From: Spongiibacter nanhainus
GTDB taxonomy: Bacteria; Pseudomonadota; Gammaproteobacteria; Pseudomonadales; Spongiibacteraceae
Assembly: GCF_016132545.1 (NCBI RefSeq)
Contig: NZ_CP066167.1
Coordinates: 3,594,001 to 3,658,000, forward strand
DNA: 64,000 nt
Reading direction: 5' to 3'
Below, one piece after another: positions 34,713 through 58,264 of the stretch (position 1 is the stretch's first letter; each line of letters starts with the position of its first letter). The notes under the pieces were generated by a model. The model worked only from the letters and a program-made list of their open reading frames with translations. It ran no database searches and was not told the DNA's origin. Both the position numbers and the translations under genes were made by a program.

Positions 34713-34768
34713 AGTGAATTGCCTTTTGTTGTTATCTCAGCCTCACTGCCTTGATGCTTCGGCCCGCT

Positions 34769-34828
34769 TAGCTCTTAACTGTCAACTTTTAGCTCTCAAC
34801 TTTTATTTCTCAATATTTAACTCTTAAC
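34769..34828. repeat. Short imperfect direct repeats in intergenic spacer
   Basis: Three copies of TA(G/A)CTCT(T/C)AAC at 34769-34779, 34790-34800 and 34818-34828, within an AT-rich stretch in the 169-bp gap between the ACAD and the DUF6285-like gene. They could come from slippage or form regulatory half-sites. No gene is seen in the gap. Confidence 0.4.
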
Positions 34829-34881
34829 ATCACCGCTATGCCGCAGAACACAGCGTGCAGTGATGTCTTTGCTATCCAGAC

Positions 34882-43045: not shown

Positions 43046-44271
43046 GCCCCTTGGAACATACCGCCCTGGCGGCGAATAAACCTCTGGCAGGCATCCGCGT
43101 ATTGGACCTGACCCACATGTTATCCGGCCCCTATTGCACCATGACCCTGGCGGACTTGGGTGCCGACATGATTAAGGTTGAACCCCTCAAAGGCGAGGGC
43201 ACCCGAGCTCTACTGGCCAAGGACCCCAAGCACGCCATCGACGGTATGGGGGCGTATTTTTTAACCCTTAATCGCAACAAGCGCACTGTCAGTATCGATT
43301 TAAAATCGGAAAAAGGCCTGGCGGTTTTTTACGAGCTGGTCAAAAACGCCGACGTGGTGGTCAACAATTTTGCGGCGGGTGTCCCCGCCAAACTGAAAAT
43401 CGACTACGAGCACCTTAGCCAGGTCAACCCGCAGATCATTACTTGCTCCATCACCGGCTTTGGTGAGAACGGCCCCGGCGCCAACCGCCCAGCCTTTGAC
43501 CAGGTTGCCCAGGCCTATGGTGGCGGTATGTCCATCACCGGCACTGACGCCGACAACCCCACCCGAGCCGGCATCCCCATCGGCGATCTGGGCGGCGGCA
43601 TGTACGGCATTATCGGCGTGCTCACCGCCATCATCGAGCGCCAACGCTCCGGCAAGGGGCAACACGTCGATATCTCCATGTTGGATGTGCAAATCTCCCT
43701 GCTCAACTACATGGCCACCATGCACTTTCTATCGGACGAAGACCCCGAGCCCATCGGCAACAGCCACTTTGTGCACGTACCCTACAACAGCTACGCCACG
43801 CGCAATGGCCATATTGTGATCGCGGTGCTGACCGACAGCTTCTGGCACAACTTAAAAACCCTGCTCGACTGTCCCGAGCTGGAGAAACCGGAATACGATC
43901 ATCAACCGGGCCGCCTGGCCGACAAAGCCGTTATCGATCAGAAAATTGGCGACATACTAAAAACCGACACCACAGAAGCTTGGCTGGATAAACTCAACGC
44001 CCTGCGTATTCCCGCTGCGCCGGTCAACACCTTTAGCCGCGCCCTGCGAGATCCGCAAGTACAACACCGCAATATGGTGGTGGAACTTCAACACCCCAAT
44101 GGTCAATCCACTCGCGGGCCAGGCTGCCCGGTAAAACTGTCACGCAGCAATGGCGAAAGCTACACCCCCGCCCCATTGTTGGGACAAAATACTGATCAAC
44201 TGATGAAGGAACTGCTCCACTACAGTGACGACGCTATCGCTCAACTCAAAGCCGAAGGAGTCATCGGCTAA
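43042..44271 (+). CDS. CaiB/BaiF (family III) CoA transferase
   Basis: A 409-residue family-III CoA transferase. Opening LAGIRVLDLTHMLSGPYCTM (the first part of the CoA site), ADMIKVEP, and the catalytic-Asp region GIPIGDLGGGMYG (Asp ~182), then GQHVDISMLD. It moves CoA between carboxylic acids without ATP. The gene overlaps both neighbours (ATGA with GST, TAATG with HMG-CoA lyase). The pairing with HMG-CoA lyase suggests a role like succinyl-CoA:hydroxymethylglutarate CoA transferase, giving HMG-CoA or a similar 3-hydroxy-3-methyl acyl-CoA. Assignment of the exact acid is inference. Confidence 0.9.
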   Translation: MSPLEHTALAANKPLAGIRVLDLTHMLSGPYCTMTLADLGADMIKVEPLKGEGTRALLAKDPKHAIDGMGAYFLTLNRNKRTVSIDLKSEKGLAVFYELVKNADVVVNNFAAGVPAKLKIDYEHLSQVNPQIITCSITGFGENGPGANRPAFDQVAQAYGGGMSITGTDADNPTRAGIPIGDLGGGMYGIIGVLTAIIERQRSGKGQHVDISMLDVQISLLNYMATMHFLSDEDPEPIGNSHFVHVPYNSYATRNGHIVIAVLTDSFWHNLKTLLDCPELEKPEYDHQPGRLADKAVIDQKIGDILKTDTTEAWLDKLNALRIPAAPVNTFSRALRDPQVQHRNMVVELQHPNGQSTRGPGCPVKLSRSNGESYTPAPLLGQNTDQLMKELLHYSDDAIAQLKAEGVIG

Positions 44272-45194
44272 TGGCAGAGCGGATTACTATCAACGATGTC
44301 GGCCCCCGGGATGGTCTGCAAAACCAGGCCACGATCTTAACTCTGGAGCAGCGACTGGGGCTGATTAACGCTTTGCTAAACGCCGGCCTTACGCACATTG
44401 AAGTCGGCTCCTTCGTCTCCCCCAAGGCGGTACCCGCCATGGCGGGTACCGGCGAACTGGTGGCTGGCCTACCCCGGGGTGAACACTTTCAATTCTCCGC
44501 CCTGATTCCCAACCGCAAGGGCTACGACTTGGCCCGTGAAGCAGGTATCCAACACGTCGGCATGGTGGTGGCGGCCAGCGACGGTATGAACCAAAAGAAC
44601 ACCAACATGCCCACCCAGCGCGCGCTGGATATTGCCGTCGAACTCTTTGAGCAGGGCAAGAGCGACGGCATGAAACCCCTGGCCTACATTGCCACTGCCT
44701 GGGAATGCCCCTATGAAGGCCCGGTAGATCCCGGCGTGGTCATCGATATCGCCGGCCAACTCATCGACGCCGGCACTGCAGAAATCATCCTCGCCGACAC
44801 CATCGGCGCCGCCGCCCCCGGTCAAGTCAAAAGCCTGGTCACGGAACTGGTCAACCAATTCGGCGCCGACACTTTCTCTTGCCACTTCCACGACACTCGG
44901 GGCATGGGCGTCGCCAATGTGTATGCGGCAACCGAAGTTGGCATTCGCAAATTCGATGCCTCCATTGGCGGCCTCGGCGGCTGCCCCTTTGCCCCTGGCG
45001 CCACCGGCAACGTCGCCACTGAAGATGTGGTATTGATGCTGGAGCAAATGGGCTTCGATACCGGCATAGACCTAGTCAAACTGGTTGCCGCTATCGACAC
45101 GGCATCCACTCTTGTCGGCCGAGACCTGGGTGGACACAGCCTGCCTTGGCTTCGTCAGCAGATAGCGAAAGGCGCATTGCCACCGCAACACTAG
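44271..45194 (+). CDS. Hydroxymethylglutaryl-CoA lyase (HMGL-type)
   Basis: A 307-residue lyase of the DRE-TIM family. Catalytic/metal residues: VGPRDGLQNQ (Arg-Asp), CHFHDTRGMG (the two metal-binding His) and the mobile loop GLGGCPFAPGATGNVATED with its Cys. It cleaves HMG-CoA to acetoacetate and acetyl-CoA. The gene overlaps the CoA transferase stop by one base. With it, a 3-hydroxy-3-methyl dicarboxylic acid could be disposed of. Related enzymes act on citramalyl- or longer 3-hydroxy-3-methyl-CoAs, so the substrate may differ. Confidence 0.93.
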   Translation: MAERITINDVGPRDGLQNQATILTLEQRLGLINALLNAGLTHIEVGSFVSPKAVPAMAGTGELVAGLPRGEHFQFSALIPNRKGYDLAREAGIQHVGMVVAASDGMNQKNTNMPTQRALDIAVELFEQGKSDGMKPLAYIATAWECPYEGPVDPGVVIDIAGQLIDAGTAEIILADTIGAAAPGQVKSLVTELVNQFGADTFSCHFHDTRGMGVANVYAATEVGIRKFDASIGGLGGCPFAPGATGNVATEDVVLMLEQMGFDTGIDLVKLVAAIDTASTLVGRDLGGHSLPWLRQQIAKGALPPQH

Positions 45195-45376
45195 ATTTAT
45201 GAAACTGGTAACAACAACTACAGCCGATGCAATGACTGCGTTTATCTCGCGTCTTTTATAGCACTATTCAAAGCGCCTGCTCCTGCTAATTTTTGACCAA
45301 GTATGGCAAGCTGTCAAAATAACAACTTTCTGACCTACGATCTTTGGTCAACAGCAGTAAGACAAGCGAGAGTGTG

Positions 45377-45835
45377 ATGACTAAAAATAATTTCGAGGAG
45401 GATTTGGTTCGCTGCATTTACGCGAGCACGGCCGCTAAAGAATTACAGCTTGCTGACTTAAAAGAACTGCTCGTCGAAGCAAGAAAGAAGAATGCAGAAC
45501 TGGGAGTAACGGGCATACTGCTCTATGAAAACGGCGCACTTTTCCAGGTCTTGGAAGGCACCTCCAGCACAATCGAACAGCTCTACAACACCATAAAATC
45601 AGATAAGCGACACCAACGGATCATCAAATTGATTTACGAACCTATTGAAGCCCGCGAGTTTGCAAATTGGAGTATGGGGCTGGCCACGGTATCGCTGGAT
45701 GAACTTAACGAGATTGAGGGGCTTAATGACTTTTTCTGTCGTGGAAAGTGTTTCACCGACCTCGATGAAGGTCGGGTGAAAAAACTCCTGGCCGCGTTCA
45801 AAGAAGGGAGGTGGCGTAACACAATTTCTGGGTAA
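45377..45835 (+). CDS. BLUF-domain blue-light photoreceptor (stand-alone)
   Basis: A 152-residue protein consisting of one BLUF domain (res ~10-105) and a short helical tail. The flavin-site residues are in place: Y15 (RCIYAS), N39 (EARKKNAELGVTGIL), Q57 (LFQVLEG), and W98/M100 (FANWSMG). BLUF proteins bind FAD and change hydrogen bonding in blue light. With no output domain it must act through a partner. The ATG at 45377 gives the canonical N-terminus. It stands alone between the HMG-CoA lyase and the convergent ketone-carboxylase operon. A weak promoter (TTGACC - 17 - AAAATA) lies at 45293-45321. Confidence 0.9.
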   Translation: MTKNNFEEDLVRCIYASTAAKELQLADLKELLVEARKKNAELGVTGILLYENGALFQVLEGTSSTIEQLYNTIKSDKRHQRIIKLIYEPIEAREFANWSMGLATVSLDELNEIEGLNDFFCRGKCFTDLDEGRVKKLLAAFKEGRWRNTISG

Positions 45836-45900: not shown

Positions 45901-47079
45901 CTACGCCGAATAAATCGTCACCACCACAGCTCCGCCCAAACCAATATTGTGCTGAAGTGCGGTGCGCGCTCCCTCTACCTGACGCACCCCCGCCTGCCCC
46001 CGCAGCTGCCAGACCAACTCGGCGCACTGGGCCACGCCGGTGGCGCCGATGGGGTGGCCCTTGGACATTAACCCGCCGGAGGGGTTAACCACAAAGCGGC
46101 CGCCGTAGGTGTTGTCACCGTCGCGGACAAACTTCTCCGCCTCGCCGCGGCCACATAAACCCAAGGCTTCGTAGCTCAGCACCTCATTGGGCGTAAAGCA
46201 GTCGTGCAGTTCCACGACCTGGATAGATTCCGGTCCGAGGCCGGCCTTTTCGTAGGCTGAAGTCGCGGCGGCCCGGCTCATTGAGGCGCCAACCAGGTCT
46301 TGAGCACTCTCAAAGCTCTCTACCGTATCGGTTGCCATACTCTGGGCGACGATTTTCACCTTACTCTGTAAGCCTTTGCGGCGGGCAAAGTCTTCACTGC
46401 AGACAATGGCAGCCGCAGCACCGGAGGTAGGTGGGCAGGCCATTAGGCGGGTCAGATAGGGTGGGAATTGCTGCGGCGCTGCCATCACCTCGTCCACCGT
46501 TAAGGGCGTTCTAAATACGGCGCGCTCGTTATGCTCGGCGTGGCGGCGGGATTTCACCGCCACCTGGGCAAACAATTCCGGCGAGGCCCCTGTCTGCTGA
46601 AGGTACTCGGCGCCGGCACCACCAAACAAGCGGATGGCCATTGGCGCCAGTGGCGCGTCCGGTTGCAGGGCACTAAGCCGGGATAGCAACGGCTCCATGG
46701 GATCGTCGCGATCGTTAAAGTGAGACGCCAGGGCGCCGGCACTCATCTGCTCAAAACCCACCACCAATGCGCAGTCTATCTCGCCGGATTGCACCGCCTG
46801 GCGGGCCAGGAACAGGCCCGTTGAACCACTGGAACAGTTGTTATTGACGTTGACCACGGGAATGCCGGTCATACCCACATCGTAGAGCGCTCGCTGGCCG
46901 CTGCAGCTATCGCCGTAGATATAGCTGCAGAAGGCCTGCTGAATATCGCCGTAGTCCAGACCGGCGTCGGTCAGCGCCTCATTGATGGCGGCGTGTACCA
47001 TCTTGGTGTAGCTGGCAGCCTCGCTGGGCTTGCGAAACTTGCTCATGCCTACACCGGCAATCACTACCTGAGTCGTCAT
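45901..47079 (-). CDS. SCP2-type thiolase / acyl-CoA acyltransferase, last gene of ketone operon
   Basis: A 392-residue thiolase-fold protein of the SCP-x/lipid-transfer group. Nucleophile Cys in NNNCSSGSTGLF (~res 85), HDCFTPNEVLSYEALG in place of the NEAF motif, and NPSGGLMSKGHPIGATG plus HNIGLGGAVVV at the end. SCP2 thiolases cleave bulky or branched 3-ketoacyl-CoAs. Here it should split the beta-ketoacyl-CoA made by carboxylation and ligation. It is the last gene of the operon starting at 56772, 20 bp after the ligase. Confidence 0.88.
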   Translation of the reverse strand: MTTQVVIAGVGMSKFRKPSEAASYTKMVHAAINEALTDAGLDYGDIQQAFCSYIYGDSCSGQRALYDVGMTGIPVVNVNNNCSSGSTGLFLARQAVQSGEIDCALVVGFEQMSAGALASHFNDRDDPMEPLLSRLSALQPDAPLAPMAIRLFGGAGAEYLQQTGASPELFAQVAVKSRRHAEHNERAVFRTPLTVDEVMAAPQQFPPYLTRLMACPPTSGAAAAIVCSEDFARRKGLQSKVKIVAQSMATDTVESFESAQDLVGASMSRAAATSAYEKAGLGPESIQVVELHDCFTPNEVLSYEALGLCGRGEAEKFVRDGDNTYGGRFVVNPSGGLMSKGHPIGATGVAQCAELVWQLRGQAGVRQVEGARTALQHNIGLGGAVVVTIYSA

Positions 47080-47099
47080 GTTTGGTGGTCCTCTTAGCC

Positions 47100-49103
47100 T
47101 TAAGATGCAGCGCGCTTGGCGATAAAGTCAGCGGCAAAGTCGATGTAGTAGTCGATGGCATCCGCATTCTTCATTGAGCCCCGGCCCACGACTTTGTCAG
47201 CGGCATAGCCCAGTAGCAGTTTTCTCACTGGCACCTCCAGCTTTTTGCCGGTGAGGGTGTAGGGTATCTCGCTGACCGGTACTACCTCGTCGGGAACGTG
47301 ACGGGGCGAGCACTCTGATTTAAGCCGCGCGGCAATGGCTTTGTTTAGGTTTTCGTCGAGGGTCGCGCCCTCCGCCAGCTGCACAAACAGCGGCATGTAA
47401 AAACCGCCATCGCCGGTCTCAACGCAGACGATCATGCTGTCGCTGATCTCCGGCATACTCTCCACCGCACGATATATCTCGGCGGTGCCGATGCGCACAC
47501 CGTAGCGGTTCAGGGTGGCGTCGGAGCGGCCGTAGATATAACAGCCACCGCGCTGGTTGATTTTGATAAAGTCGCCGTGGCGCCACACACCGGGGATCTC
47601 CTCAAAGTAGGACTCCCAGTATTTCTTCATGTCGGGGTCGTTGAGGAAGTACAGCGGCATGGAAGGGAATGGCGTGCGACATATCAGCTCGCCAACATCG
47701 TCCCGCACCGGCTTGCCGTCGTCGTCCAGGGAATCCACATTCATAGCCAATGCCCGGGCCTGAATCTCTGCGGCGTGTACCGGCAAGGTGGGGCTCGCCG
47801 CCACAAAGGCGCTGGCAATTTCAGTACCGCCACTCTGGGAGGTGAGCCACAGGTCCTGCTTCACATTGTTGTAAAACCAGGCAAAGGTGGCGGGCATGGA
47901 GGGCGAGCCGCCAACCAGAATGGTATTGAGACGACTGAGATCAAAACTGTCTTTGGGAACGACTTTGTTGTCTTCCATCAATTGTACATAGCTGGGGCTG
48001 GCACCAAAGACCGTGGCGCCACTGGTTTCCGCCAGCTTCCACAGCACGTCGGTAGACGGGTATACCGGACTGCCGTCGTACAGTGCAATTGAAGCTCCGG
48101 TCAGCATCATGCCCACCACCAGATTGAACATGACCCAACCGGTGGTGGTGTAGAAGAAGCTGGTATCGCCGGGCTTCAAGTTCATGTGGAAGGTCATGAA
48201 CTTGAGCATTTCCATCAGCACGCCGACGTGGGAGTGGGCGATGGCCTTGGGCAGGCCGGTGGTGCCGGAGGAAAACACATACCACAGTGGATGATCGCTG
48301 GGCACACGTTCAAATAGAAACTGCTCGCCGGGGTCTTCGCCTGCCATTAGAGATTCCCAGCTTTCCACAGGCTTGTCGACGCTAAAGGGAGTGCCGCTGC
48401 CAATCACATCAAAGCGCACAATAGCATCGAGGGAATCGAAGCTGTCGATCAGCCGGGAGAACTCCTCGGCGCGATCAAACTGCTTACCGTTGAACTCATA
48501 GCCATCGCAGAGAAACAGCATCTTGGGCTTGGCCTGCCCCAGGCGGTCGTTAATGGCCTGAGCGCCAAACTCCGGTGCGGCATTGCTCCACACTGCGCCG
48601 ACACTGATCGCCGCCAGCATCGCCACCACTGTCTCGGTGAGGTTGGGCATCACGCCACAGACTGAGTCACCGGGTTTGATCCCCCGGGCTCGCAGCGCCG
48701 TGGCCAGCACCCGAACCTGACGGGCCAGCTCCGGCCAGGAGGTCTCCCGCAGTGTGGCCGCTTCCGACATGGCGTAGATGGCAGTCCCATCGTTGCTCTG
48801 GGCGTGACGGAGAATATGCTCGGCGAAATTGACCCGGCTACCCTCAAACCACTTAACGCCGGGGCGCATTTCCAGGCTGTCTACCACCGCCTTGTAGGGG
48901 GTATCGCTCTGCACATCAAAGTACTGCCACAAACTGCCCCAAAAGGCCTCAGGTTGATCAACAGACCACTGCCACAGTGATGAGTAATCATCGACCTCAA
49001 CAATGTCCTGCTCTTTGAGCCAGTTCATTAGCTGAGTCAGATTGCTGTTTTGCACAAACTCCTGGGGCGGCGACCAGAGCAATTCCCCTTCACGTACTGT
49101 CAT
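47100..49103 (-). CDS. Acetoacetyl-CoA synthetase-type ligase (beta-keto acid:CoA ligase)
   Basis: A 667-residue AMP ligase of the acetoacetyl-CoA synthetase family. N-terminal VDDYSSLWQWSVDQPEAFW, P-loop VFSSGTTGLPKAIAHSH, hinge YGRSDATLNRYGVRIGTAEI, and the catalytic lysine in YTLTGKKLEVPVRK. It activates a beta-keto acid with ATP and CoA. In the acetophenone pathway of Aromatoleum the equivalent enzyme is benzoylacetate-CoA ligase, a relative of this family. Here it follows the fifth carboxylase gene by 16 bp and precedes the thiolase, so it probably activates the carboxylated ketone. The ATG at 49103 gives the family N-terminus; the longer frame overlaps the previous gene. Confidence 0.92.
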   Translation of the reverse strand: MTVREGELLWSPPQEFVQNSNLTQLMNWLKEQDIVEVDDYSSLWQWSVDQPEAFWGSLWQYFDVQSDTPYKAVVDSLEMRPGVKWFEGSRVNFAEHILRHAQSNDGTAIYAMSEAATLRETSWPELARQVRVLATALRARGIKPGDSVCGVMPNLTETVVAMLAAISVGAVWSNAAPEFGAQAINDRLGQAKPKMLFLCDGYEFNGKQFDRAEEFSRLIDSFDSLDAIVRFDVIGSGTPFSVDKPVESWESLMAGEDPGEQFLFERVPSDHPLWYVFSSGTTGLPKAIAHSHVGVLMEMLKFMTFHMNLKPGDTSFFYTTTGWVMFNLVVGMMLTGASIALYDGSPVYPSTDVLWKLAETSGATVFGASPSYVQLMEDNKVVPKDSFDLSRLNTILVGGSPSMPATFAWFYNNVKQDLWLTSQSGGTEIASAFVAASPTLPVHAAEIQARALAMNVDSLDDDGKPVRDDVGELICRTPFPSMPLYFLNDPDMKKYWESYFEEIPGVWRHGDFIKINQRGGCYIYGRSDATLNRYGVRIGTAEIYRAVESMPEISDSMIVCVETGDGGFYMPLFVQLAEGATLDENLNKAIAARLKSECSPRHVPDEVVPVSEIPYTLTGKKLEVPVRKLLLGYAADKVVGRGSMKNADAIDYYIDFAADFIAKRAAS

Positions 49104-49119
49104 TTTTTGGCCTCCCGCT

Positions 49120-49974
49120 TTACGCCCAGGCAACAAACTGCTGTTTGAGGCTGGCAATGTGTTTGCGAATTTGCTCAGGCGCCAGTTCCACAGGCACTTG
49201 GGAATAGACCACTTCCGCCGGCTCCGGTAGGGCGCCGTCTTGCCAGAAGGCACTGCCCAGTACCGCGACATTAGCGGCAGAGCCCGAGGACACAACAATG
49301 TCCGCGCCATCTTTAAAGGGGGCATCGTCGGCTTCAGTGTTGACTATGCAGCCAAAGGACCACTGGTAGTGCTCTGCCACGTTGGCGATGGGCTGATACA
49401 GTTCCGGCCGGGCACCGGCCGCCATATCCTCATTTCCAACGGAGGCGATCACCGCTGTAACGCCACACTCTTTAAATTCCCGCACCAGGTCGGCCAGGTA
49501 AACCGACACGGAGTCCACATCCAGTTCAGTAAGATCAAAGACTTCAGCATCGGGATTGGCCTGGGTGTGGGCCCAGCGTGTTACTTCACTGCTGCTGGGC
49601 AGCACCACAAAAATTTCGCCGCGGACCACACCGCCAATGGATGACAGCAAGTCCTTGAGGTCGTGTCGAAATACCGGATGGGTCAACAGTTTTTTCACCG
49701 CATAGCGCACCCGTTTTTTACCCGACATATCCATCAGTGCCTGGGGGTTGGCCTGTAACCAGGCAGTCAGTATCTCCATAAGCGGCAGGCTCAGGGCATC
49801 GGCCGAGAGCACACCTTCCAACTGACCAAACAGCGACGCGGTTTCGGTGCTGTTCATCCAGGGAATTTGCCCGCTTTTCAGCAGGGTTCTCTTTGCAAAC
49901 TCAGTGCCGTCCAACCACAGTTTGTGGGTTGCTGTAGCCTGACTGCCGTGCAGAATTTCCGCGTTTGTTGTCAT
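49120..49974 (-). CDS. Fifth subunit of ketone carboxylase operon (ApcE-like position), family not recognised
   Basis: A 284-residue protein, about 31 kDa, with no signal peptide or membrane segment. It contains RVRYAVKKLLTHPVF, IGGVVRGEIFVVLPSSS, AVIASVGNEDMAAG, and near the end DGADIVVSSGSAANVAVLG. The last stretch could be a nucleotide- or acid-binding loop, but I cannot place it in a known family. Its place and size match ApcE (about 34 kDa), the extra subunit of acetophenone carboxylase. The ATG at 49974 is preferred to the GTG two codons upstream. It lies 23 bp after the HyuB-like gene. Confidence 0.75.
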   Translation of the reverse strand: MTTNAEILHGSQATATHKLWLDGTEFAKRTLLKSGQIPWMNSTETASLFGQLEGVLSADALSLPLMEILTAWLQANPQALMDMSGKKRVRYAVKKLLTHPVFRHDLKDLLSSIGGVVRGEIFVVLPSSSEVTRWAHTQANPDAEVFDLTELDVDSVSVYLADLVREFKECGVTAVIASVGNEDMAAGARPELYQPIANVAEHYQWSFGCIVNTEADDAPFKDGADIVVSSGSAANVAVLGSAFWQDGALPEPAEVVYSQVPVELAPEQIRKHIASLKQQFVAWA

Positions 49975-49997
49975 GGTCACTATCCAGCTCTAATTCG

Positions 49998-52250
49998 TTA
50001 TTGGTCTTGGCTCATGGCGGCCAACTGGGCTTTCAATTTTGCCAGCTCGATATCTTTGGGGTCCGGCATAATAATCGGTGGGGTTTCACCGGGCAGCGCC
50101 TTGCCAAAGGGACCACAGAAGAGCTCTTTGGAGCCGTTCCAGCTGCCAAAGAAGGGCACTTCTGACTGGTCGGGTTCTTCGGTCACGTGCTTCTTCACAA
50201 ACTCGTCGTAGGTCATGCCCTGCTTGATACGCTGTTGGCGAATCGCGTTGCGCTTGGCCTCGGTCTCGGCTTGGTTGACGACCAGGGTGGTGGGATCAAA
50301 CACCACACCGTAGAGATCCAGTGCACACTCGGCGGTGATAATGCCCTCCTCGACATCCTTCATCACCATTTCGGTGTCCCGCTCCAGCACATCACCATAA
50401 CCACCGCCGGCGCCCTGGCTGGTCATAAACAGCTCGCCCTCGGGATACAGCTCAAAGGGCACCGCCATGGACAGGCTTTCGTAGGTGCAATCTTCAAAAG
50501 GCTGCTCGTTCATGATGTATTCCATGGAGGCACGGAAAATTTCCGGATCGCTCTTCATGGTGTGGAACAGGTTCTTACCCCGTACGCGAGTGGAGCCGTA
50601 GGTCGCAGACGAGTAGCCGCCGAACAGACCCTGGGTAGAGGGGAAGTAAGAGCCGCCGGTAAAGGTCTGAAAACCAAAGGGCTGGTCGCCAAAACGCATC
50701 AGGCCGTACTGGTAGCCAGAGCCGCCGCGGAACTTGCCAAAGCCACAGTTACCGGACCAAATCCGCTTGGAGATCGCGTAGATATAGGGCAGCTGTTCTT
50801 CAGCGTCCTCGCTCTCACCGATGTCGACGTTGGCACCGAAGCAAGGGGCGATACTGTGTTCACCGTCTTCGTCGCACTTGGCTCCGCCGGCCATACCGTT
50901 AAGGTCGCCGCACATGTTGCCCACGGAGTCCTCGTGCTGGTTAATGCCGCCGTAGATGATGGCCGCCGGTTGGTTGAACCAACCCGCCTTGGTCTTGCCA
51001 TAGCGATGGGGGGCGCCAAAGTAGAATTTGGCAAAAGCGATTTCCGATGCAGTCATCACTTTAAACATCGGCTGCACACACAAGGCCACCGGTACATCGT
51101 TGCCGCAGTCGGGAATGGTGCCGGGGTCGGTTTCAAACTCAAAGCAGTCGATGATCGCCTGGGCGCAGGGCATATCCGGCCAGATATGGTGGGCCAGGGT
51201 AATGGCGCAGCCCAGTACCTGGGTCGACAACAAGCTGTTGATGGGCCGGTTGTAAATCTCCGGCGAGCAGCCCCGCATATCGACAATGACTTTGTCGCCC
51301 TTAACGGTAAAGTTGTAGACCAGCTTGAGCATGGCCTGCTCCCGCATGGTGTCGTCGATAAAGAACTGGGTGCGCACGGTGCCGTCGGGCAGCGCGGCAA
51401 TACGGCGGCGGCCCTCGTCCCGCATAAACTCCACGGTGCTGCGCATGGAGCCTACGACGTTATCCACACCGTAGCGTTGCATATGCTCCTGGGCGCGGCG
51501 CTCAAGTCGGCAGCAGGCCGCCAGACGTGCCTTAAGATCCGCCAGCATGGTCTGGGGCTCCCGGCAGCTGTTCTGCATAAAGGTCACCAGGTCGGTGCGC
51601 AGCTGGAAGTTCTCGACGATTTTGATCGGCGAACCGCGGATGCCTTCATCCCAGGGGGACTCGATCATCGGCCCCATGCCGCCGGGGACCCGGGCGCCGA
51701 TTTCCCCTTCGTGCATCGCACAGACACACCAGCCCACTAGGTTGCCGTCGTTAAAAATAGGCATAAACAAGTGCTGGTCGGGGCTGTGAATACCGCCGTA
51801 GTGAGCATCGTTCAGTAGAAAGCCATCACCCTCTTTGATACCGACCGTTTGATCGTCTTCGTAATACTTGCGGATAAAACGAATCGGGTAGTGAAGGCTA
51901 ACCGTAAAGCCGGCCACACCCCGGGTAGAGGCCAGTGACAAGTCACCGGCCGCGGTAAAGTAACCGGTGGACATATCGGCGCACTGGGCCGCTGGTGACG
52001 CCACGGTCATCTCGGCGATTTTAAAGGTCTCATCCAAGGCCGCCCGCATACCGGAGCGAATCTCGGCGTAGAGATTGGTATCGATGTCCTCTGACAGCAC
52101 CCGATCTTCCCACTCACTGCGGGGTGCAACGTGGTGGTTGCGCTGAATCTCGGGGTCTGGCCCGAGAAAGGCACGGTTTTTACTGAGGAAACTGTCGACC
52201 AACGCTTTGTCATCGGCCAGGTCTGGATTGTTGTTAGCGAGATCATTCAT
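49998..52250 (-). CDS. Ketone carboxylase HyuB-like subunit (ApcD-like)
   Basis: A 750-residue hydantoinase B/oxoprolinase-family protein. Visible family segments: the metal-site region GDGFLLNDAHYGGIHSPDQH with AMHEGEIGARVPGG, the PINSLLS part near ~300, and QGAGGGYGDVLERD near ~620. In the acetone/acetophenone carboxylases this subunit carries the carboxylation centre. Start at 52250. The order (HyuA, small, HyuA, HyuB, extra) matches apcABCDE. The 517-residue plus-strand frame opposite it is an antisense shadow. Confidence 0.9.
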   Translation of the reverse strand: MNDLANNNPDLADDKALVDSFLSKNRAFLGPDPEIQRNHHVAPRSEWEDRVLSEDIDTNLYAEIRSGMRAALDETFKIAEMTVASPAAQCADMSTGYFTAAGDLSLASTRGVAGFTVSLHYPIRFIRKYYEDDQTVGIKEGDGFLLNDAHYGGIHSPDQHLFMPIFNDGNLVGWCVCAMHEGEIGARVPGGMGPMIESPWDEGIRGSPIKIVENFQLRTDLVTFMQNSCREPQTMLADLKARLAACCRLERRAQEHMQRYGVDNVVGSMRSTVEFMRDEGRRRIAALPDGTVRTQFFIDDTMREQAMLKLVYNFTVKGDKVIVDMRGCSPEIYNRPINSLLSTQVLGCAITLAHHIWPDMPCAQAIIDCFEFETDPGTIPDCGNDVPVALCVQPMFKVMTASEIAFAKFYFGAPHRYGKTKAGWFNQPAAIIYGGINQHEDSVGNMCGDLNGMAGGAKCDEDGEHSIAPCFGANVDIGESEDAEEQLPYIYAISKRIWSGNCGFGKFRGGSGYQYGLMRFGDQPFGFQTFTGGSYFPSTQGLFGGYSSATYGSTRVRGKNLFHTMKSDPEIFRASMEYIMNEQPFEDCTYESLSMAVPFELYPEGELFMTSQGAGGGYGDVLERDTEMVMKDVEEGIITAECALDLYGVVFDPTTLVVNQAETEAKRNAIRQQRIKQGMTYDEFVKKHVTEEPDQSEVPFFGSWNGSKELFCGPFGKALPGETPPIIMPDPKDIELAKLKAQLAAMSQDQ

Positions 52251-52274
52251 AACTGACGCTCTTCCGTATTATTG

Positions 52275-54419
52275 TTACTTGGCTTTGCTGAACCACACTG
52301 CCCCTTGGGCAGCGGCTTTAAAGGTCCAACCGGGCTCGACCAGATAGGTGGTGGAACCGGGGTTGACGATGGCGGGGCCCTCAATACAAACACCGGGTTC
52401 CAACGCCGCCGCACCGTACACCGGGGTTTCCATCGCGCCGTCGCTGCCCTTTCCGTCGCCACTGTTGAAGTAGCACTCCCGGAAGGCCACCGGATCGGGC
52501 TGTACCGGCAAAGGCGCCGGCGGCACCAGCTCGGAGAAAGTCACGGTGCCCAGGTCGACCCGGGACACTACCCGCACGGTGGTCACCCACACGCCGGACT
52601 CAGGGGAGACGATCTCGTGACCGTAGCGTTTACCAAAGTCGTCGTTCATTGCCTCGATGGCATTGAGTACATCGGCGGGTTTGGTCAGACGGCGATTGGG
52701 CAGCTCGATGCTGACCTCCATCTTCTGGATGCCATAGCGCATATCCAGTTCCAGGCTGTACTTGATGTCTTCATCGTGAAAGCCCTGGCGGAGCAGGTCG
52801 TCGCGACCGCGTTGCTCCAGCTCTTCAACCAATTCATTGAAACGTTGATAGTCGGAGTACAGGGCCCGCAGATGCTTGTTGTAGAAACCCAGTGAGACGT
52901 TTTTCTCGTGGATATGCATCTGATCCAGACCAGCGCCACCGCAGGCTGAGAACACGCTGCTGTAGGGCGGTGCCAGAATTTCGGTAATGCCGGCCTTGTC
53001 GGCAATGCCACAGCAGTGCAATGGACCGTTACCGCCGTAGGCCAGGAAGATAAATTCTTCGGCCTTGTAACCACCGCCGTTCAATTCCCGCACCAGGCCG
53101 GCGGCCATTTCGCTGTCGGCCATGCTCTTGATCAACAGCGCGGCATCCTGCTCGGAGATATCCATCTCATCACAGATATCTTCCAGCGCTTGATAGGAGC
53201 GGCGTTTATTAAGCGGGATGGCACCGTTGGCATAGTTGTCGGGATCGAGATAACCCAGTACCAAGTCGGCATCGGTAACGGTGGGATTCATCCCGCCGCG
53301 GTCGTAACAGGCGGGGCCGGGATCGGAGCCGGCACTCTGAGGGCCCACCTTGACGGTGTCGAAGATGGCGTCGTACTTGGCGATGGAGCCGCCCCCGGCA
53401 CCGAGGGTAACCAAGTGCACCATGGGCAGTGTGACCCGCCAGCGGTCTACCACCGGATTAAAGTCGTAGTGCTTGGTGCCGCCTTCGGTGATCAGACCGA
53501 TGTCGAAGGAGGTCCCGCCCATATCGCCGCAGACAAAATTCTTGGTGCCGCTTTGCAGCGCCAACTGCTCGGCGGCATGAATCCCGGCAACTGGCCCTGA
53601 GTGCAGAGTCTTAAGGGCATCGGTAGAGTTCAACTGCGCCATACCACCGGAGTTATGAACCAGCAGCATCGGCTTACCATAGCCATTGGTGCGCAGGTTT
53701 TGCTCCAGCGCACTCATGGCGTAGTACATGGTGGAATGCAGGAAGGCGTCGATAATGGCCGAGGAGGAGCGCACGTACTCGCCCTTGCGACCCACCACTT
53801 GGTGGGACAGCACCATGGGGATGGCACCCAGCATCGACGAGGGGAATTCCTCTTCAAAAATTTCCTGCACCCGCAACTCGTGCTCGGGGTTTTCCACCGA
53901 GTTGATCATATTGACGACGATGGCTTGCACGCCGCGGTCTACCAGCTGCTTGAGCTTTTCTCTGACGTCGGCTTCATCCAGATCCAACAGGATTTTGCCG
54001 CGATAATCCATGCGCTGCTTAACAGTACGGATGGAGGCGATTGGCACAATGGGGTCTGGGCGGCGCGCTCGGGACAAATCCCGTGCCTGCTCGTCGGGAA
54101 GACCGTCGCCGTAGCCCCGACCGCGGGACAGCGGCACAGTACTTTCAAATCCTTCGGTGATCAACAGACCGACTTTGGGCCCGCGCCGCTCAATCAGGGC
54201 GTTGGTACCCAGCGTGGTCGCGTAGCGCACCGAGTCGACTTCCGCCAGCATATCGCTGCGCGAGAGCTTTAGCATTTCACAGCTCTGGTCCAGAGCATCG
54301 TTAAAGCCCAGCGCCAGGTTGTGGTGGGTGGTCAGCGCTTTGGTCTGGATAAACTCATCGCCCCAGCACACAAAGCAGTCAGTGAAGGTACCACCGATAT
54401 CAACGGCAATTCTCTTCAT
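52275..54419 (-). CDS. Ketone carboxylase HyuA-like ATPase subunit (ApcC-like)
   Basis: A 714-residue hydantoinase A/oxoprolinase-family protein of the actin-like ATPase superfamily. N-terminal phosphate loop VDIGGTFTDCFVCWG; second motif GDMGGTSFDIGLITEGG (~res 300); later LGAGGGSIAKYD and GSDPGPACYDRGG. It couples ATP hydrolysis to activation of the ketone enol or bicarbonate. It is the second of two HyuA-type genes in the operon, unlike acetone carboxylase with one. It is two bases from the small-subunit gene and 24 bp from HyuB. Confidence 0.92.
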   Translation of the reverse strand: MKRIAVDIGGTFTDCFVCWGDEFIQTKALTTHHNLALGFNDALDQSCEMLKLSRSDMLAEVDSVRYATTLGTNALIERRGPKVGLLITEGFESTVPLSRGRGYGDGLPDEQARDLSRARRPDPIVPIASIRTVKQRMDYRGKILLDLDEADVREKLKQLVDRGVQAIVVNMINSVENPEHELRVQEIFEEEFPSSMLGAIPMVLSHQVVGRKGEYVRSSSAIIDAFLHSTMYYAMSALEQNLRTNGYGKPMLLVHNSGGMAQLNSTDALKTLHSGPVAGIHAAEQLALQSGTKNFVCGDMGGTSFDIGLITEGGTKHYDFNPVVDRWRVTLPMVHLVTLGAGGGSIAKYDAIFDTVKVGPQSAGSDPGPACYDRGGMNPTVTDADLVLGYLDPDNYANGAIPLNKRRSYQALEDICDEMDISEQDAALLIKSMADSEMAAGLVRELNGGGYKAEEFIFLAYGGNGPLHCCGIADKAGITEILAPPYSSVFSACGGAGLDQMHIHEKNVSLGFYNKHLRALYSDYQRFNELVEELEQRGRDDLLRQGFHDEDIKYSLELDMRYGIQKMEVSIELPNRRLTKPADVLNAIEAMNDDFGKRYGHEIVSPESGVWVTTVRVVSRVDLGTVTFSELVPPAPLPVQPDPVAFRECYFNSGDGKGSDGAMETPVYGAAALEPGVCIEGPAIVNPGSTTYLVEPGWTFKAAAQGAVWFSKAK

Positions 54420-54421
54420 GG

Positions 54422-54853
54422 TTACGCGCCTCCCTGATGAGAGTGGTCGTGACCACAGGCTCGGGTGGGCGTTGGGCTAACTTCAACGGTGGGTTGCCCG
54501 GGTTCTGCCAGCATCGGCTGACCGGTCCATTTTTCACGCAGGGAGTCGATGTCGATTTCCATGTCGTAGAGGGGCATGGCACCAGGCATGGTGTACTCCA
54601 CATCCATCAACGTGCCACAGTGGGGGCAGTAGAACTCGTAGATAACACAGACTTTGGGGTCCGGTGAAAAACACAGGTCATACATCTCCGGGTTGAGCAG
54701 CGGACGGTGCACTTCCTGTGGATTGCGGTTGTAGATCAGTGTGTGTTGCTTGTAGTTGTCTCGCGCTGAGCCGAGTTCGTTCTGGCAGCGACGGCACTCC
54801 CACTGCTCAGTGTCCAGATCGGCCTGGAGATATTCAGTCACGGATACTTTCAT
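54422..54853 (-). CDS. Ketone carboxylase small zinc-binding subunit (ApcB-like)
   Basis: A 143-residue protein. Zinc-type Cys pairs: C20/C23 (WECRRCQNE) and C76/C79 (YCPHCG), with C61 and C69 nearby, and a Cys/His-rich tail (ACGHDHSHQGG). The MPGAMPLYDMEIDIDSL segment is typical of the gamma subunits of acetone/acetophenone carboxylases. It lies between the two HyuA genes with 2-bp gaps on each side. The ATG is inside the AATAACAATGA motif. The usual small-subunit size is about 15 kDa; this one is about 16 kDa. Confidence 0.85.
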   Translation of the reverse strand: MKVSVTEYLQADLDTEQWECRRCQNELGSARDNYKQHTLIYNRNPQEVHRPLLNPEMYDLCFSPDPKVCVIYEFYCPHCGTLMDVEYTMPGAMPLYDMEIDIDSLREKWTGQPMLAEPGQPTVEVSPTPTRACGHDHSHQGGA

Positions 54854-54855
54854 TG

Positions 54856-56772
54856 TTATTGTCCCTTATTGGATTTCAGGAAAATGTCGCCATTGCCGGT
54901 GAAGCGGTAGTGCCAGTCAGCCGGCACGCTGCAAGTCCAGAAAGCCTCTTCCAGTACCGCCGGGCCCTGGCCTTCAGCGCCGGGCTGCTGTCCCTCAACA
55001 GCAATAACCGGCACGGCATGTGACGCGCCCTGAGGGTCGACCAGTTCGCGGTTGCTACCAATTTGCGCTGGCTGCGGCGATGGCTCACTGCCGCCTTCCA
55101 GGGTGGCGTGATCAATTTTCTTTACTGCACGCAGGCCAATGCGCACGCCCTCGCCCGCCTTTCCTGCAACTTTCGGCAGTTCATCGACGCTGCAATCCAC
55201 CAGGCGATCACCGGATTCATACCAAGCTTCCAGCTGGCATTCGTCCTCGCTGTAGCCCTCGGTATGCATATCTCGCAATACCCGCTCCCGCAGGCCGGCA
55301 ACCACATCTTCGACCTTAGTGGACGATTGAACTAACGCTGATGCTGAGTGGGCGATATCACTAAAGCCAATGCCATGAGCACTGAACACGGCGGACAAAC
55401 GGGGGATCAATACGGTATCGACGCCGGCGCTCTCCGCCACCGCCGCAATCCCCATCGGGCCACCACCACCAAAGGCCATTAGCACAGTGTTGTCGTCGAC
55501 ATCACAGAATTCGGCGATCCCCTTGGCAATCAGATCCGCCCAGGCTTTGGTCATTTGCTGACAGGCTTGATTGACGCTGATACCCAGCGGGTCGGCCACA
55601 TTGCGGCGGATCGCCGCCTCGGCCTTATCTTTGCTGAGGTTGAGTTTGCCGCCGAAGTAGGTGGCCGGATCCAGCAGGCCGGTAACCAGCAGAGCGTCGG
55701 TAATGGTGGCTTCTTCGCCCCCCATACTGAAGCAGGCCGGGCCCGGTGCACCGCCCACTGACTCGGGGCCGACGCGAATAGCACCCTCCACCACTTTAAT
55801 GATCGAGCCGCCACCGACACCGACGCTGACAATGTCAGCCAGGGCGTAGTCACACTTCACGCCCTCCACATGCCCCAGGCGGTGGGAGCGGATGGCGTCG
55901 TTTTCCACCAAGCCGATATCGGTCGTGGTACCGCCCACATCCACGGTGATGACCCGGCCCAAATTGTAGTGGCGGGCATAGGCCAAGGCGCCCTCTGAAC
56001 CGCCGCGGGGGCCGGAGCTGTATGTCTTCAGGGCGATGGTTTTGGCTACTCGACCGGAGTAACCATCGTTGCGATACACCAGCAAAGGATGGCGGACTTT
56101 ATAGCGCTGCAACTCGTTTTCGGTGTTGTAGAGGAAGCGCTCCATGGCCGGATGCAGGAAGGCATTGAGCAACGCCGTCCATACCCGGATATTGGGGTCG
56201 GCGTTCTGGCAGAGGGTATTGGCGTACAACACCGGTACCGAGCCCAACAAATGACGAGGAAAGGCCCTCAGCATCGCCGCGGCAATACGCTTCTCTGTGG
56301 CGGCATAATCGCCTTCCATGCACGCCACCACAATGCGGCTCGCGCCTCCGGCAGATAGCTGGTTTACGGCTTCGGTCAACGCCGCGCGAAAAGCCTCATC
56401 GCCTTGGCTGCTGTCCAGGGTAGCGATACGCTCACCCACCAGGTTCTTGAGCAGGCCTGCCTGCTGGTCGCTCTGATCGAGCCACTCCCGCGCGGCGGTA
56501 TCCACAATCAGTCCCAGCGCCGGCCCTTTCCGCTCAACCAGAGCATTGGTGCCCTGGGTGGTGGAGTAGCGGATATGGTCAGTAGACTGCAGCAGCGCCG
56601 CCAGATCCTCTTTACCATAGATATCCGCCGAGATCTTTTTCAGGCCCTCGAAAAAGCACTTACTCAGATCGTAGGGCGTGGTGATGGTCTTGGTGCGATA
56701 GGACTTATTACCGTCCAACACCCAGATATCGGTGAGAGTACCGCCGTTGTCGATATTGATCAGTTTTCCCAT
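54856..56772 (-). CDS. Ketone carboxylase HyuA-like ATPase subunit (ApcA-like)
   Basis: A 638-residue HyuA-family protein, about 70 kDa. Phosphate loop INIDNGGTLTDIWVLDG (Asn in place of the usual Val/Ile-Gly step), VDVGGTTTDIGLVENDA (~res 285), and GVGGGSIIKVV. The start at 56772 (MGKLINIDNGG) is set by the family N-terminus; an upstream in-frame ATG at 56895 adds 41 residues without similarity. It is the first gene of the operon. Size matches the 70-kDa ApcA subunit of acetophenone carboxylase. With the other HyuA subunit it implies two ATP-driven steps per turnover, as described for that enzyme. Confidence 0.9.
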   Translation of the reverse strand: MGKLINIDNGGTLTDIWVLDGNKSYRTKTITTPYDLSKCFFEGLKKISADIYGKEDLAALLQSTDHIRYSTTQGTNALVERKGPALGLIVDTAAREWLDQSDQQAGLLKNLVGERIATLDSSQGDEAFRAALTEAVNQLSAGGASRIVVACMEGDYAATEKRIAAAMLRAFPRHLLGSVPVLYANTLCQNADPNIRVWTALLNAFLHPAMERFLYNTENELQRYKVRHPLLVYRNDGYSGRVAKTIALKTYSSGPRGGSEGALAYARHYNLGRVITVDVGGTTTDIGLVENDAIRSHRLGHVEGVKCDYALADIVSVGVGGGSIIKVVEGAIRVGPESVGGAPGPACFSMGGEEATITDALLVTGLLDPATYFGGKLNLSKDKAEAAIRRNVADPLGISVNQACQQMTKAWADLIAKGIAEFCDVDDNTVLMAFGGGGPMGIAAVAESAGVDTVLIPRLSAVFSAHGIGFSDIAHSASALVQSSTKVEDVVAGLRERVLRDMHTEGYSEDECQLEAWYESGDRLVDCSVDELPKVAGKAGEGVRIGLRAVKKIDHATLEGGSEPSPQPAQIGSNRELVDPQGASHAVPVIAVEGQQPGAEGQGPAVLEEAFWTCSVPADWHYRFTGNGDIFLKSNKGQ

Positions 56773-56923
56773 AAGATTTACTTTTTTCTTGTTAGCGTTG
56801 GACAAAGTGTGTGCCCGCTTGCCGAATCGATGTACTACCCAATCGTGCAGTTTTTTACTTATTCGCTCTGGCAAACGGGGTTTAATCAGGATCATTCTTC
56901 ATAGCGGGTGGGGCCGGGGACAA

Positions 56924-56939
56924 CTACCCCAAAGGGTAG
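56924..56939. promoter_or_regulatory. Putative LuxR/LAL operator (TACCC/GGGTA palindrome)
   Basis: CTACCC - CAAA - GGGTAG, a perfect 6-bp inverted repeat in the region between the divergent carboxylase operon and reductase gene. TACCC..GGGTA half-sites are of the type bound by LuxR/NarL-type helix-turn-helix domains, and such a regulator is encoded ~1.3 kb away. The site is 97 bases before the reductase ATG and 152 before the ApcA-like start. Confidence 0.5.
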
Positions 56940-57035: not shown

Positions 57036-58049
57036 ATGAGATACTGGCGCTTTGATAAGCACCCCGAAGAAATGATCGACAGCGACACCCTCTCTCTGCA
57101 AGAGGCTCCCAAGCCCAAGATAGGCCGCGGAGAAGTGCTGCTGCGCAATCTGTACGTGTCGATGGATGCCACCAACCGCCTGTGGCTGGGTAAGCGCAAA
57201 GAGCTCTATATTGAGCCCCTGTCGCTGGGCGACACCATGAAGGGCTTTACCCTTTCAGTGGTGGAGGAATCCGACAATCCGGCCTTCGCCCCGGGGCAAA
57301 TCGTCACCTGGCTGGGCGAATGGGCGGACTACAGCGTCAGCAATGGCCTGGATCTGATTCCCTTCTCTGCGCCCGCCGATGTGCCATTGGCGGACGCTTT
57401 TGGTGTGCTCAATATCGCCGGCCCCACCGCTTATTACGGCCTGCTGGAAATCGGCCAACCCCGACCGGGCGAAACCGTGGTCGTTACCGCCGCCTCCGGC
57501 GCGGTGGGCTCCCTAACCGGCCAGATTGCCAAGTTGGCAGGCTGCCGTGTGGTGGGCACTGCTGGTAGCGACGAAAAGTGTCGTCGCCTCATTGAGGAAT
57601 TTGGCTTTGACGCCGCCATCAATTACAAGCAACCGGACTTTGCCGACAAGTTGGCGGCCGCTTGCCCCCACGGTATCGACATTCAATTTGAGAATGTTGG
57701 CGGCGAGATTCTGGATCACTGCCTAACACTAATGAACAATGGCGGGCGAGTGGTCATTTGCGGGCTGATTTCCATGTATAACTCAGAGCAGAACGTCCCC
57801 GGCCCCTACATGTTCCACAACACGATCATGAAGCGGCTGAAGATTGAGGGCTTTGTTATTCTCGACCACATGCAGGACTTCCCCAAAATGCAGCACCACC
57901 TTGCCCAGTGGATGAGCGAAGGTAAACTAAACTATCGTCTCGAAGTGATTGATGGGCTCGAGCACGCTGTGGACGCCTTGAATTCCCTGTACACTGGCAG
58001 CAACGATGGCAAGGTCATGATCAAAGTGGGGCCGGAGCCCTCTCGCTAG
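57036..58049 (+). CDS. NADP-dependent MDR-family oxidoreductase (CurA/PTGR-like)
   Basis: A 337-residue zinc-free medium-chain reductase. NADP-binding loop VTAASGAVGSLTGQIAKLAG (~res 153), GTAGSDEKCR, and FDAAINYKQPDF; the LRNLYVSMDATNRLWL opening is typical of the prostaglandin-reductase/CurA-like branch. These enzymes reduce alpha,beta-unsaturated ketones. It is divergent from the ketone carboxylase operon and upstream of the LAL regulator. That suggests it prepares the saturated ketone that is then carboxylated; this is inference. RBS TAAGGA before the ATG. Confidence 0.9.
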   Translation: MRYWRFDKHPEEMIDSDTLSLQEAPKPKIGRGEVLLRNLYVSMDATNRLWLGKRKELYIEPLSLGDTMKGFTLSVVEESDNPAFAPGQIVTWLGEWADYSVSNGLDLIPFSAPADVPLADAFGVLNIAGPTAYYGLLEIGQPRPGETVVVTAASGAVGSLTGQIAKLAGCRVVGTAGSDEKCRRLIEEFGFDAAINYKQPDFADKLAAACPHGIDIQFENVGGEILDHCLTLMNNGGRVVICGLISMYNSEQNVPGPYMFHNTIMKRLKIEGFVILDHMQDFPKMQHHLAQWMSEGKLNYRLEVIDGLEHAVDALNSLYTGSNDGKVMIKVGPEPSR

Positions 58050-58264
58050 CCACCTCTTTATTTTTGGCGGTAGCCCTTTTGGTTACCGTCTGTGGTACTG
58101 CGGTGCGAGGCGAGTTATGGAAGTGGCAAAGCGACGCGATACTGTGTGTGGCCATCGCCAAGCACTGCCACTGTCCCAGCGCCGCCCCCTTTTATCGCCG
58201 TTGACGCCACAGCGCCCATCGACTGCACACTGTGGCGCAATACAGAAAGATAAAAAAGCGCACA

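Follow-up and report, generated by a model that had tools for sequence, protein, structure and literature searches.

Lignin degraders convert aryl ketones to beta-keto acids at the cost of ATP through the biotin- and dikinase-type Acv and Hpe systems, whose proteins are unrelated to the acetophenone carboxylase (Apc) type of enzyme considered here. The closest described system of the latter type is found in Aromatoleum aromaticum (ApcABCDE and the ligase Bal; structures 5L9W and, for ApcE, 9FOU), where the gene order apcABCD(E) encodes the alpha-prime, gamma, alpha, beta and epsilon subunits; the Apc branch as a whole was described as highly diverse, with a single characterised member as of 2017 (PMC5214803). 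Acetone carboxylase, AcxABC (5M45, 5SVB), shares the core of HyuA, HyuB and zinc-ribbon proteins and is described in the same paper as having neither an alpha-prime nor an epsilon subunit (PMC5214803). Other examples of Apc-like genes are those reported in 2011 beside scoAB and a thiolase gene in Helicobacter bizzozeronii (PMC3234257) and a cluster annotated as Apc in Rhodococcus ruber Chol-4 (PMC6498646). Here, a window of 64,000 nucleotides from Spongiibacter nanhainus (positions 3594001-3658000 of its genome, analysed as one contig of 4.08 Mb) is described in which a seven-gene operon is, by sequence, an Apc-type ketone carboxylase and not acetophenone carboxylase proper. The locus appears to encode a biotin-independent, ATP-dependent enzyme of five subunits, together with downstream enzymes and its own regulator, and a bulky, lipophilic ketone other than acetophenone is its most likely substrate. 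This reading is built on family membership, the predicted fold of ApcE, synteny and operator conservation, from which the reaction, its direction, the substrate and binding by the regulator are deduced.

The operon consists of seven co-directional genes on the minus strand, running from position 56772 down to 45901 with spacing of 2-24 bp (2, 2, 24, 17, 16 and 20 bp in order from apcA to the thiolase gene). These encode an ApcA-like alpha-prime subunit, a HyuA-type ASKHA kinase (54856-56772, 638 aa, whose open reading frame could also open at 56895), an ApcB-like small zinc-ribbon or gamma subunit (54422-54853, 143 aa), an ApcC-like alpha subunit, also a HyuA-type ASKHA kinase (52275-54419, 714 aa), an ApcD-like beta subunit of HyuB type (49998-52250, 750 aa), an ApcE-like epsilon subunit with a UroD-like barrel (49120-49980, 286 aa from a GTG start), a beta-keto acid--CoA ligase of the acetoacetate--CoA ligase type in the position of bal (47100-49103, 667 aa) and an SCP2-type (SCPx) beta-keto-acyl-CoA thiolase (45901-47079, 392 aa). 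In this order the Pfam calls are HyuA, acetone-carboxylase gamma, HyuA, HyuB, no match, AMP-binding with ACAS_N, and thiolase, and the operon is beyond chance since all of its proteins except ApcE match their own family at E < 1e-20 and the order of ApcA-E and ligase recurs in relatives. All seven reading frames named in the original prediction, made from the sequence alone, are present on the minus strand, with the gaps of 16 and 20 bp that it gave upstream of ligase and thiolase; the fifth protein is 286 aa where 284 aa had been given, and the limits 45901-56772, while enclosing real genes, were drawn too narrowly, as the conserved unit adds curA, a LuxR/MalT-type gene and two operator-like sites.

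Family membership of the carboxylase core has been assessed in several ways. In a phmmer search of PDB sequences, which covered ApcA, ApcB, ApcD and ApcE, the best matches were 5l9w_b for ApcA (276 bits), 5l9w_A for ApcD (238 bits) and 5l9w_C for ApcB (87 bits), with acetone carboxylase the weaker match at 102, 119 and 49 bits, respectively. The best NCBIfam models for the four core subunits are ApcA, ApcB, ApcC and ApcD, with every equivalog cut-off missed by far (330 bits against 1250, 106 against 250, 544 against 1500 and 267 against 1500, in that order). Two near-canonical loci, L149 and L150 (comparison loci and genomes are given by L and G numbers), score 1487 and 1432 bits on the ApcC model, close to its cut-off of 1500, and thus serve as stand-ins for Aromatoleum. 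Pfam Acetone_carb_G matches ApcB with 110 bits, above its cut-off, and Hydantoinase_B matches ApcD with 249 bits. When the features that define the Apc type are taken from the 5L9W structure paper (PMC5214803), the operon has the Apc gene order, as judged from sequence matches and the ApcE fold, and both HyuA proteins carry an ASKHA ATP site comprising PHOSPHATE 1, PHOSPHATE 2 and ADENOSINE motifs (DNGGTLTD, DVGGT and GGAPGP in ApcA; DIGGTFTD, DMGGT in place of DVGGT, and GSDPGP in ApcC). The four zinc cysteines are found in ApcB as CRRC at residues 20-23 and CPHC at 76-79. The alpha fingerprint R/KERiDsxG retains its position in ApcC in altered form, reading KQRMDYRG at residues 134-141, fitting only a relaxed pattern with Q in place of E, while it reads KERIDSAG in L149, RERVDSTG in L150 and KERVDSVG in the Helicobacter locus L056; the pattern [RK].R.D..G was not found in ApcA. 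ApcA is the predicted bicarbonate-activating kinase and ApcC the predicted ketone-activating (enol-phosphate) kinase.

For ApcE no sequence match was found in Pfam, NCBIfam or PDB. An AlphaFold2 model of the protein (predicted local distance difference test 91.6, predicted template modelling score 0.89) has A. aromaticum ApcE, 9FOU, as its best Foldseek match (E 4.7e-7, 13% identity), and an epsilon subunit of ApcE fold is accordingly predicted from the model. The ligase passes both acetoacetate--CoA ligase models (TIGR01217, 749 bits, cut-off 521; NF002937, 859 bits, cut-off 639), and the thiolase passes NF006102 (PRK08256; 627 bits, cut-off 436) and has SCP2-thiolase type-1, 6hsj, as its best PDB match (426 bits). 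The route from beta-keto acid to CoA ester to thiolytic products, which had been suggested from the gene order, fits these assignments. As a dedicated partner of the module the thiolase was rejected, in that orthologues of 61-63% identity occur in the module-free genomes G001, G014 and G016 and there is a second copy in S. nanhainus. The position of the thiolase gene inside the operon is a difference from A. aromaticum, for which the corresponding enzyme is called 'so far unknown' and two-component regulation is described (PMC4729919), as opposed to the LuxR/MalT-type protein in S. nanhainus. The near-canonical locus L149 (G355:C11) also carries an SCP2-type thiolase, 58% identical to that of the window, which is a candidate for the missing benzoylacetyl-CoA thiolase of acetophenone degradation.

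In a tree of ApcC (86 rows, thinned from 121 by reducing the more distant HyuA loci, and made by a quick method that issued long-branch warnings), S. nanhainus and six relatives form a 7-row clade with support of 100, which nests in a 56-row clade (support 100) of Roseobacters, Burkholderiales, Xanthobacter, Actinobacteria, Helicobacter and Porticoccus. This larger clade lies apart from near-canonical L149 and L150 and from the hydantoinases, the branches that separate it from the latter having values of 96-100 in the Shimodaira-Hasegawa-like approximate likelihood ratio test (SH-aLRT), and the acetone-carboxylase-like row L165 stands far off on a long branch. Grouping with hydantoinases, the outcome that the original prediction had named as speaking against it, was tested for ApcC by this tree and did not occur, and sequence, gene order, motifs, tree and ApcE fold agree on the Apc-type assignment. 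If the complex were instead a hydrolase that uses ATP (a hydantoinase, oxoprolinase or lactamase) and has additional subunits, this would be in keeping with the shared HyuA/HyuB folds, with caprolactamase models that reach 405 bits on ApcC and 169 bits on ApcD, and with the oxoprolinase/hydantoinase 6yra, which ranks between 5L9W and acetone carboxylase in the PDB search (152 bits for ApcA, 123 bits for ApcD). Caprolactamase and hydantoinases are hydrolases without gamma, alpha-prime and epsilon subunits, however, and hydantoinase clusters are described as comprising two genes only (PMC5214803), whereas subunits of all three types are encoded here, ApcC falls outside the hydantoinase rows and a ligase and a thiolase follow in the same operon, so that a hydrolase is highly improbable. 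A two-gene hydantoinase or oxoprolinase without a gamma subunit was rejected on the Acetone_carb_G subunit and the separate placement of ApcC, and acetone carboxylase (acxABC, with a single HyuA) on the presence of two HyuA genes and a gene for a fifth subunit.

The Apc-type carboxylase of S. nanhainus also differs from that of A. aromaticum in its putative substrate pocket, in addition to its separate ApcC clade and the missed equivalog cut-offs. The pocket residues proposed for Apc are Leu81, Phe281, Asn282, Pro285, Ile333, Gln344 and Thr345 (PMC5214803); these read L, F, N, P, I, Q, T in L149 and L150, and T, L, H, P, V, H, L in all seven rows of the window's clade, where six of the seven reported positions are thus changed, including Phe281 to Leu, and Pro285 alone is kept. 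The change speaks against acetophenone and names no substrate, because it is largely common to the 56-row clade, including Helicobacter. Acetophenone carboxylase in the strict sense was rejected on these six positions and the four missed cut-offs, and the same two observations tell against an aryl-alkyl ketone carboxylase more broadly, which would act on acetophenones or on phenylbutanones such as raspberry ketone after reduction of a benzalacetone precursor by the CurA-like enzyme. In its favour, the closest characterised enzyme is acetophenone carboxylase, and Escherichia coli CurA has been described as reducing p-hydroxybenzalacetone and vanillylidenacetone, apparently not benzalacetone itself (PMC7175512). 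The SCP2-type thiolase cannot decide the matter because near-canonical L149 has one too, and no match to aromatic ring-cleavage families was found among the 39 window proteins scanned, which represent part of its open reading frames; an aryl-alkyl substrate is held to be doubtful.

The conserved unit extends beyond the operon. Divergent from apcA lie a gene for a CurA-like NADPH-dependent enone reductase (57036-58049, plus strand) and one for a LuxR/MalT-type (LAL) regulator (58232-60970, plus strand, 912 aa) with Pfam GerE (76 bits) and TPR_MalT (47 bits), both above cut-offs. A match to ApcB was found in 10 genomes, including S. nanhainus, when 145 relatives were searched, and a genus/family set of 21 genomes comprises seven module carriers (S. 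nanhainus, G004, G006, G007, G008, G017 and G019) and 14 non-carriers. ApcA-E and the ligase occur in the same order in G004, G006, G007, G008 and G019, the order in G017 being interrupted by a contig end, and in the same five relatives curA and the LuxR gene are divergent from apcA at the same position. The enzyme is, by sequence, CurA-like and not CurA proper (344.5 bits on NF058644, which misses the cut-off of 440). An orthologue of at least 62% identity is present in all seven carriers, while the best match in the 14 non-carriers is at most 45%; this tracking of the module (7/7 against 0/14) involves a physically linked gene. Outside the family, loci L052, L053, L065, L158 and L164 bear CurA at 38% identity or more, and no match to CurA, LuxR, DUF1329 or MMPL was found in 40 more distant HyuA loci (L074-L113), which are mostly hydantoinase-like, with a gamma-like match in L074, L075, L079 and L080. 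The enone reductase would have a clear role in the module if the ketone arose at first in alpha,beta-unsaturated form. In five of the six relatives a TonB receptor gene lies 3' of the ligase gene, and the thiolase gene follows this receptor in four relatives, and lies beyond LuxR in G019; in G006 the thiolase and receptor genes are together at another place on the contig. In G006 a CurA paralogue (39% identity) has also been observed between two RoxA-like genes (L252:5960-13547).

Helicobacter provides another example of Apc-type genes in a non-aromatic context, the ApcC of three Helicobacter species being 54% identical to that of the window. The scoAB and thiolase neighbours in H. bizzozeronii point to a small ketone (PMC3234257), unlike the context in S. 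nanhainus, and no CurA, LuxR or MMPL match was found within the stretches examined from the three species. A carboxylase of acetone or butanone with Apc rather than Acx architecture would agree with the shared ApcC clade, in which the Helicobacter genes adjoin a thiolase, with scoAB beside the H. bizzozeronii genes (PMC3234257), with a Neorhizobium plasmid relative that adjoins CoA transferase A/B, and with the acetoacetate--CoA ligase type of the ligase. On the other hand, a larger, hydrophobic and unsaturated substrate is indicated by the conserved CurA, for which acetone would offer no evident role, by the TonB receptor found in relatives and by the MMPL partners, and a small ketone is regarded as quite improbable.

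Two operator-like sites lie between apcA and curA, site 1 at 56834-56852 (plus strand; ACTACCCA-N4-GCAGTT-like) and site 2 at 56923-56939 (plus strand; the palindrome ACTACCC-N4-GGGTAG). When the apcA-curA intergenic regions of six genomes were aligned, mean column identity was 58% and two short blocks were nearly fixed; site 1 is conserved in all six, and its pattern, derived from these same regions, has one match in the window where none is expected. All seven carriers have the exact palindrome, either between apcA and curA or next to curA (in G017 next to curA, on its own contig); it was not found in the five non-carriers tested, and carriers hold at most one further exact locus. In S. nanhainus the 337 bp that precede the MMPL gene contain two copies with one mismatch each, and in G006 an exact copy lies upstream of an MMPL-DUF1329-YCF48-DUF1302 operon. 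Sites with at most one mismatch are present at 10 of 61 apcA starts, five within the genus/family and five outside it (L041, L042, L053, L072 and L160); the 61 include duplicates, as L044 and L161 are the same contig stretch, L051 and L058 are nearly identical and L057 and G060 are identical. Further such sites precede the thiolase gene in L041 and the TonB receptor gene in L053 and lie between LuxR and DUF1329 in L042. At the same threshold none was found across the 731 kb of the 40 more distant HyuA loci, nor at any of their 45 hyuA starts, and the one background site in 200 kb is the site for which L267 had been chosen. A scan for sigma-70 promoters was uninformative (1 site, 5.8 in shuffles). 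It is suggested that the LuxR/MalT protein binds ACTACCC-N4-GGGTAG, and through it the protein probably controls apcA-E, curA and, in S. nanhainus, the MMPL/DUF1329 transport operon. No report of this operator was found in the open-licence PMC papers searched, among the matches listed. Other copies have been observed as well: a second exact palindrome in S. nanhainus lies between two divergent small reading frames (G000:C1:2840528; L267:9529), and two extra, unexplained sites occur in relatives, one directly after the ligase gene (G006, 23385) and one apparently within a reading frame (G019, 24368).

The transport cluster (DUF1329/DUF1302/YCF48/DUF1329/MMPL by Pfam) starts at 62983-64000 on the minus strand and continues past the window (L114:2983-11225), and MMPL genes of 57-61% identity adjoin Apc-type operons in L052, L152, L154, L156 and L158. 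Together with the SCP2-type thiolase and the TonB receptor of the relatives, the MMPL/DUF1329/DUF1302 cluster points to a lipophilic ketone. A steroid context is seen in relatives. In G007 and G008 the module is flanked on one side by F420-biosynthesis genes and on the other by a block comprising pyruvate kinase, hsaA-like, hsaC-like and kshA-like genes, the regulator having genes of kshA-like, extradiol-dioxygenase and acyl-CoA-dehydrogenase type as neighbours; in G004 about 14 kb separate this block from LuxR. HsaC and HsaA are names assigned from Pfam domains and the position of the genes, and no steroid-specific model underlies them. The kshA-like and hsaC-like genes of S. nanhainus are at 2.34 Mb and share 80% and 79% identity with their G008 counterparts, and isolates of Spongiibacteraceae and Halieaceae have been described as growing on cholesterol (PMC5790920). 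An isoprenoid context is offered by nine RoxA-like genes at 60 bits or more in the S. nanhainus genome, seven of which, within 3514193-3548364, are clustered with TonB-receptor-like genes about 46-80 kb left of the window (G000:C1:3514193-3548364; L250, L251). Since the products of rubber cleavage end in an aldehyde and a ketone (PMC10731047), such genes are a possible source of isoprenoid methyl ketones. Two further observations from these neighbourhoods are that rubber-oxygenase-like genes are common in genomes of the genus and that a coenzyme F420 cluster (CofC, CofD, F420 ligase, a CofH-type radical SAM protein and an F420-dependent oxidoreductase) flanks the steroid locus in G008 (L023:6715-12539) and relatives.

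Several observations weigh against this reading. In whole-genome counts the palindrome does not exceed its reversed control in the S. nanhainus genome (2 vs 2; 12 vs 6 across 12 genomes), so that the evidence lies in its conserved place, not in its number; it precedes the MMPL gene in only two of the six carriers that have an MMPL orthologue, the other four having none at one mismatch, and 51 of the 61 apcA starts of Apc-like operons are without it. The TonB receptor of the relatives is not present between ligase and thiolase in the S. nanhainus window. KshA (at least 79% identity) and HsaC (at least 74%) occur in the same 18 of the 21 genus/family genomes, that is in all seven carriers and also in 11 of the 14 non-carriers, so the presence of steroid genes does not discriminate and an exclusively steroid reading was rejected; the module-free genomes G005 and G010 have the same steroid locus, and the steroid link may be one inherited insertion. 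Of 33 named Apc-carrying genomes, 8 have a strong HsaC (more than 200 bits), which was found neither in 17 named genomes chosen for a more distant HyuA nor in eight unnamed Apc-carrying genomes (G519 being the same assembly as G355); taxonomy may explain this excess, as six of the eight genomes with a strong HsaC are Actinobacteria. Among the five CurA loci outside the family, only the genome of L065 has a strong HsaC (222 bits); of the genomes of L052, L053, L158 and L164, three give 115, 133 and 135 bits and one gives no match. RoxA-like genes (at least 60 bits) occur in five of seven carriers and in 8 of 14 non-carriers, and a rubber reading was rejected on this lack of association with the module.

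With these points taken into account, a bulky, lipophilic ketone is still preferred, and the non-aromatic ketone of the original prediction is plausible, given the different pocket and the lipophilic neighbourhood, though unproven. Within the preferred reading, a steroid-derived ketone (e.g. the C24 ketone of alkylated sterol side chains or a 20-ketosteroid) and an isoprenoid or other terpenoid methyl ketone are put on a level, each a real possibility that falls short of being probable, and some other long aliphatic ketone is considered unlikely. In the proposed pathway, the CurA-like enzyme would reduce an alpha,beta-unsaturated ketone, ApcC would phosphorylate the enol of the ketone while ApcA would activate bicarbonate, and ApcD, ApcB and ApcE would join both activated intermediates to give a beta-keto acid, which the ligase would convert to a CoA ester for the SCP2-type thiolase to split into acetyl-CoA and a shortened acyl-CoA; the LuxR/MalT protein would drive apcA-E, curA and the MMPL/DUF1329 operon through the palindrome. 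Put more specifically, and somewhat more tentatively, the Apc-type enzyme could carboxylate the C24 ketone left by removal of a sterol alkyl branch (with CurA acting on the 22-en-24-one of delta-22 sterols) or a RoxA-derived oligo-isoprenoid methyl ketone, the thiolase then freeing acetyl- or propionyl-CoA. According to a review, the way in which sitosterol and campesterol lose their C24 branch is less characterised; a carboxylation at C28 and aldol cleavage take part, with activation to a CoA ester at a later stage (PMC6678751). A ketone carboxylase acting after aldol cleavage would represent an alternative order of the same side-chain steps. Genes for sterols with unsaturated side chains were described as largely unknown in a 2024 paper on stigmasterol (PMC11061730). 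In the open-licence PMC papers, no report of a steroid or isoprenoid Apc was found among the matches listed, and searches for phytone or isoprenoid ketones, or for 12-oxo-4,8-dimethyltrideca-4,8-diene-1-al (ODTD) or rubber, together with a carboxylase found nothing on point.

Additional observations concern other Apc loci and the remainder of the window. In Thalassovita litoralis ApcD is apparently fused to a UbiB-like kinase domain in a single 1240-aa frame (L043:12175-15894), where an assembly error is possible. In L151 and L157 the ApcB gene is flanked by two HyuA genes, both of which resemble ApcC more than ApcA. The haloarchaeal loci L061 and L148 (Haloarculaceae) are Apc-type A-B-C-D operons, with L148 having an extra gene after D and, in its vicinity, genes for AMP-binding ligases, for a thiolase and for an OB-fold protein. 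Several ApcB/AcxC-like matches occur in single genomes (11 in G355, six each in G263 and G234, and four in G455). Within the window, overlapping genes for a glutathione S-transferase, a family III CoA-transferase and a 3-hydroxy-3-methylglutaryl-CoA lyase form a small operon that adjoins the thiolase end (42317-45194, plus strand) and is followed by a BLUF blue-light sensor (45344-45835), and a second catabolic island at 29045-37504 contains a P450, an acyl-CoA ligase and a pimC/pimD-like acyl-CoA dehydrogenase pair. The P450 (29045-30502) was considered as a CYP125 and rejected, its best PDB matches being CYP120 and taxadiene hydroxylase, with no CYP125 among the best 60 of 463.

The new substrate class that had been proposed for this enzyme type is new in part, since a non-aromatic Apc context had been reported from H. 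bizzozeronii in 2011 (PMC3234257) and the diversity of the branch had been published (PMC5214803). A non-aromatic Apc is not a new idea as such; the new elements are a clade of its own, linkage to a thiolase and a reductase, and the operator. The operon represents a complete cassette of carboxylase, ligase, thiolase, enone reductase, regulator and operator-like sites from a separate and widespread clade, and its conserved palindrome makes the inducer, and via the inducer the substrate, directly testable. If the substrate is a sterol or isoprenoid ketone, the operon would supply the less characterised step in removal of the C24-branched sterol side chain (PMC6678751) and would account for a step in the breakdown of sterols or polyisoprenoids that is poorly characterised.

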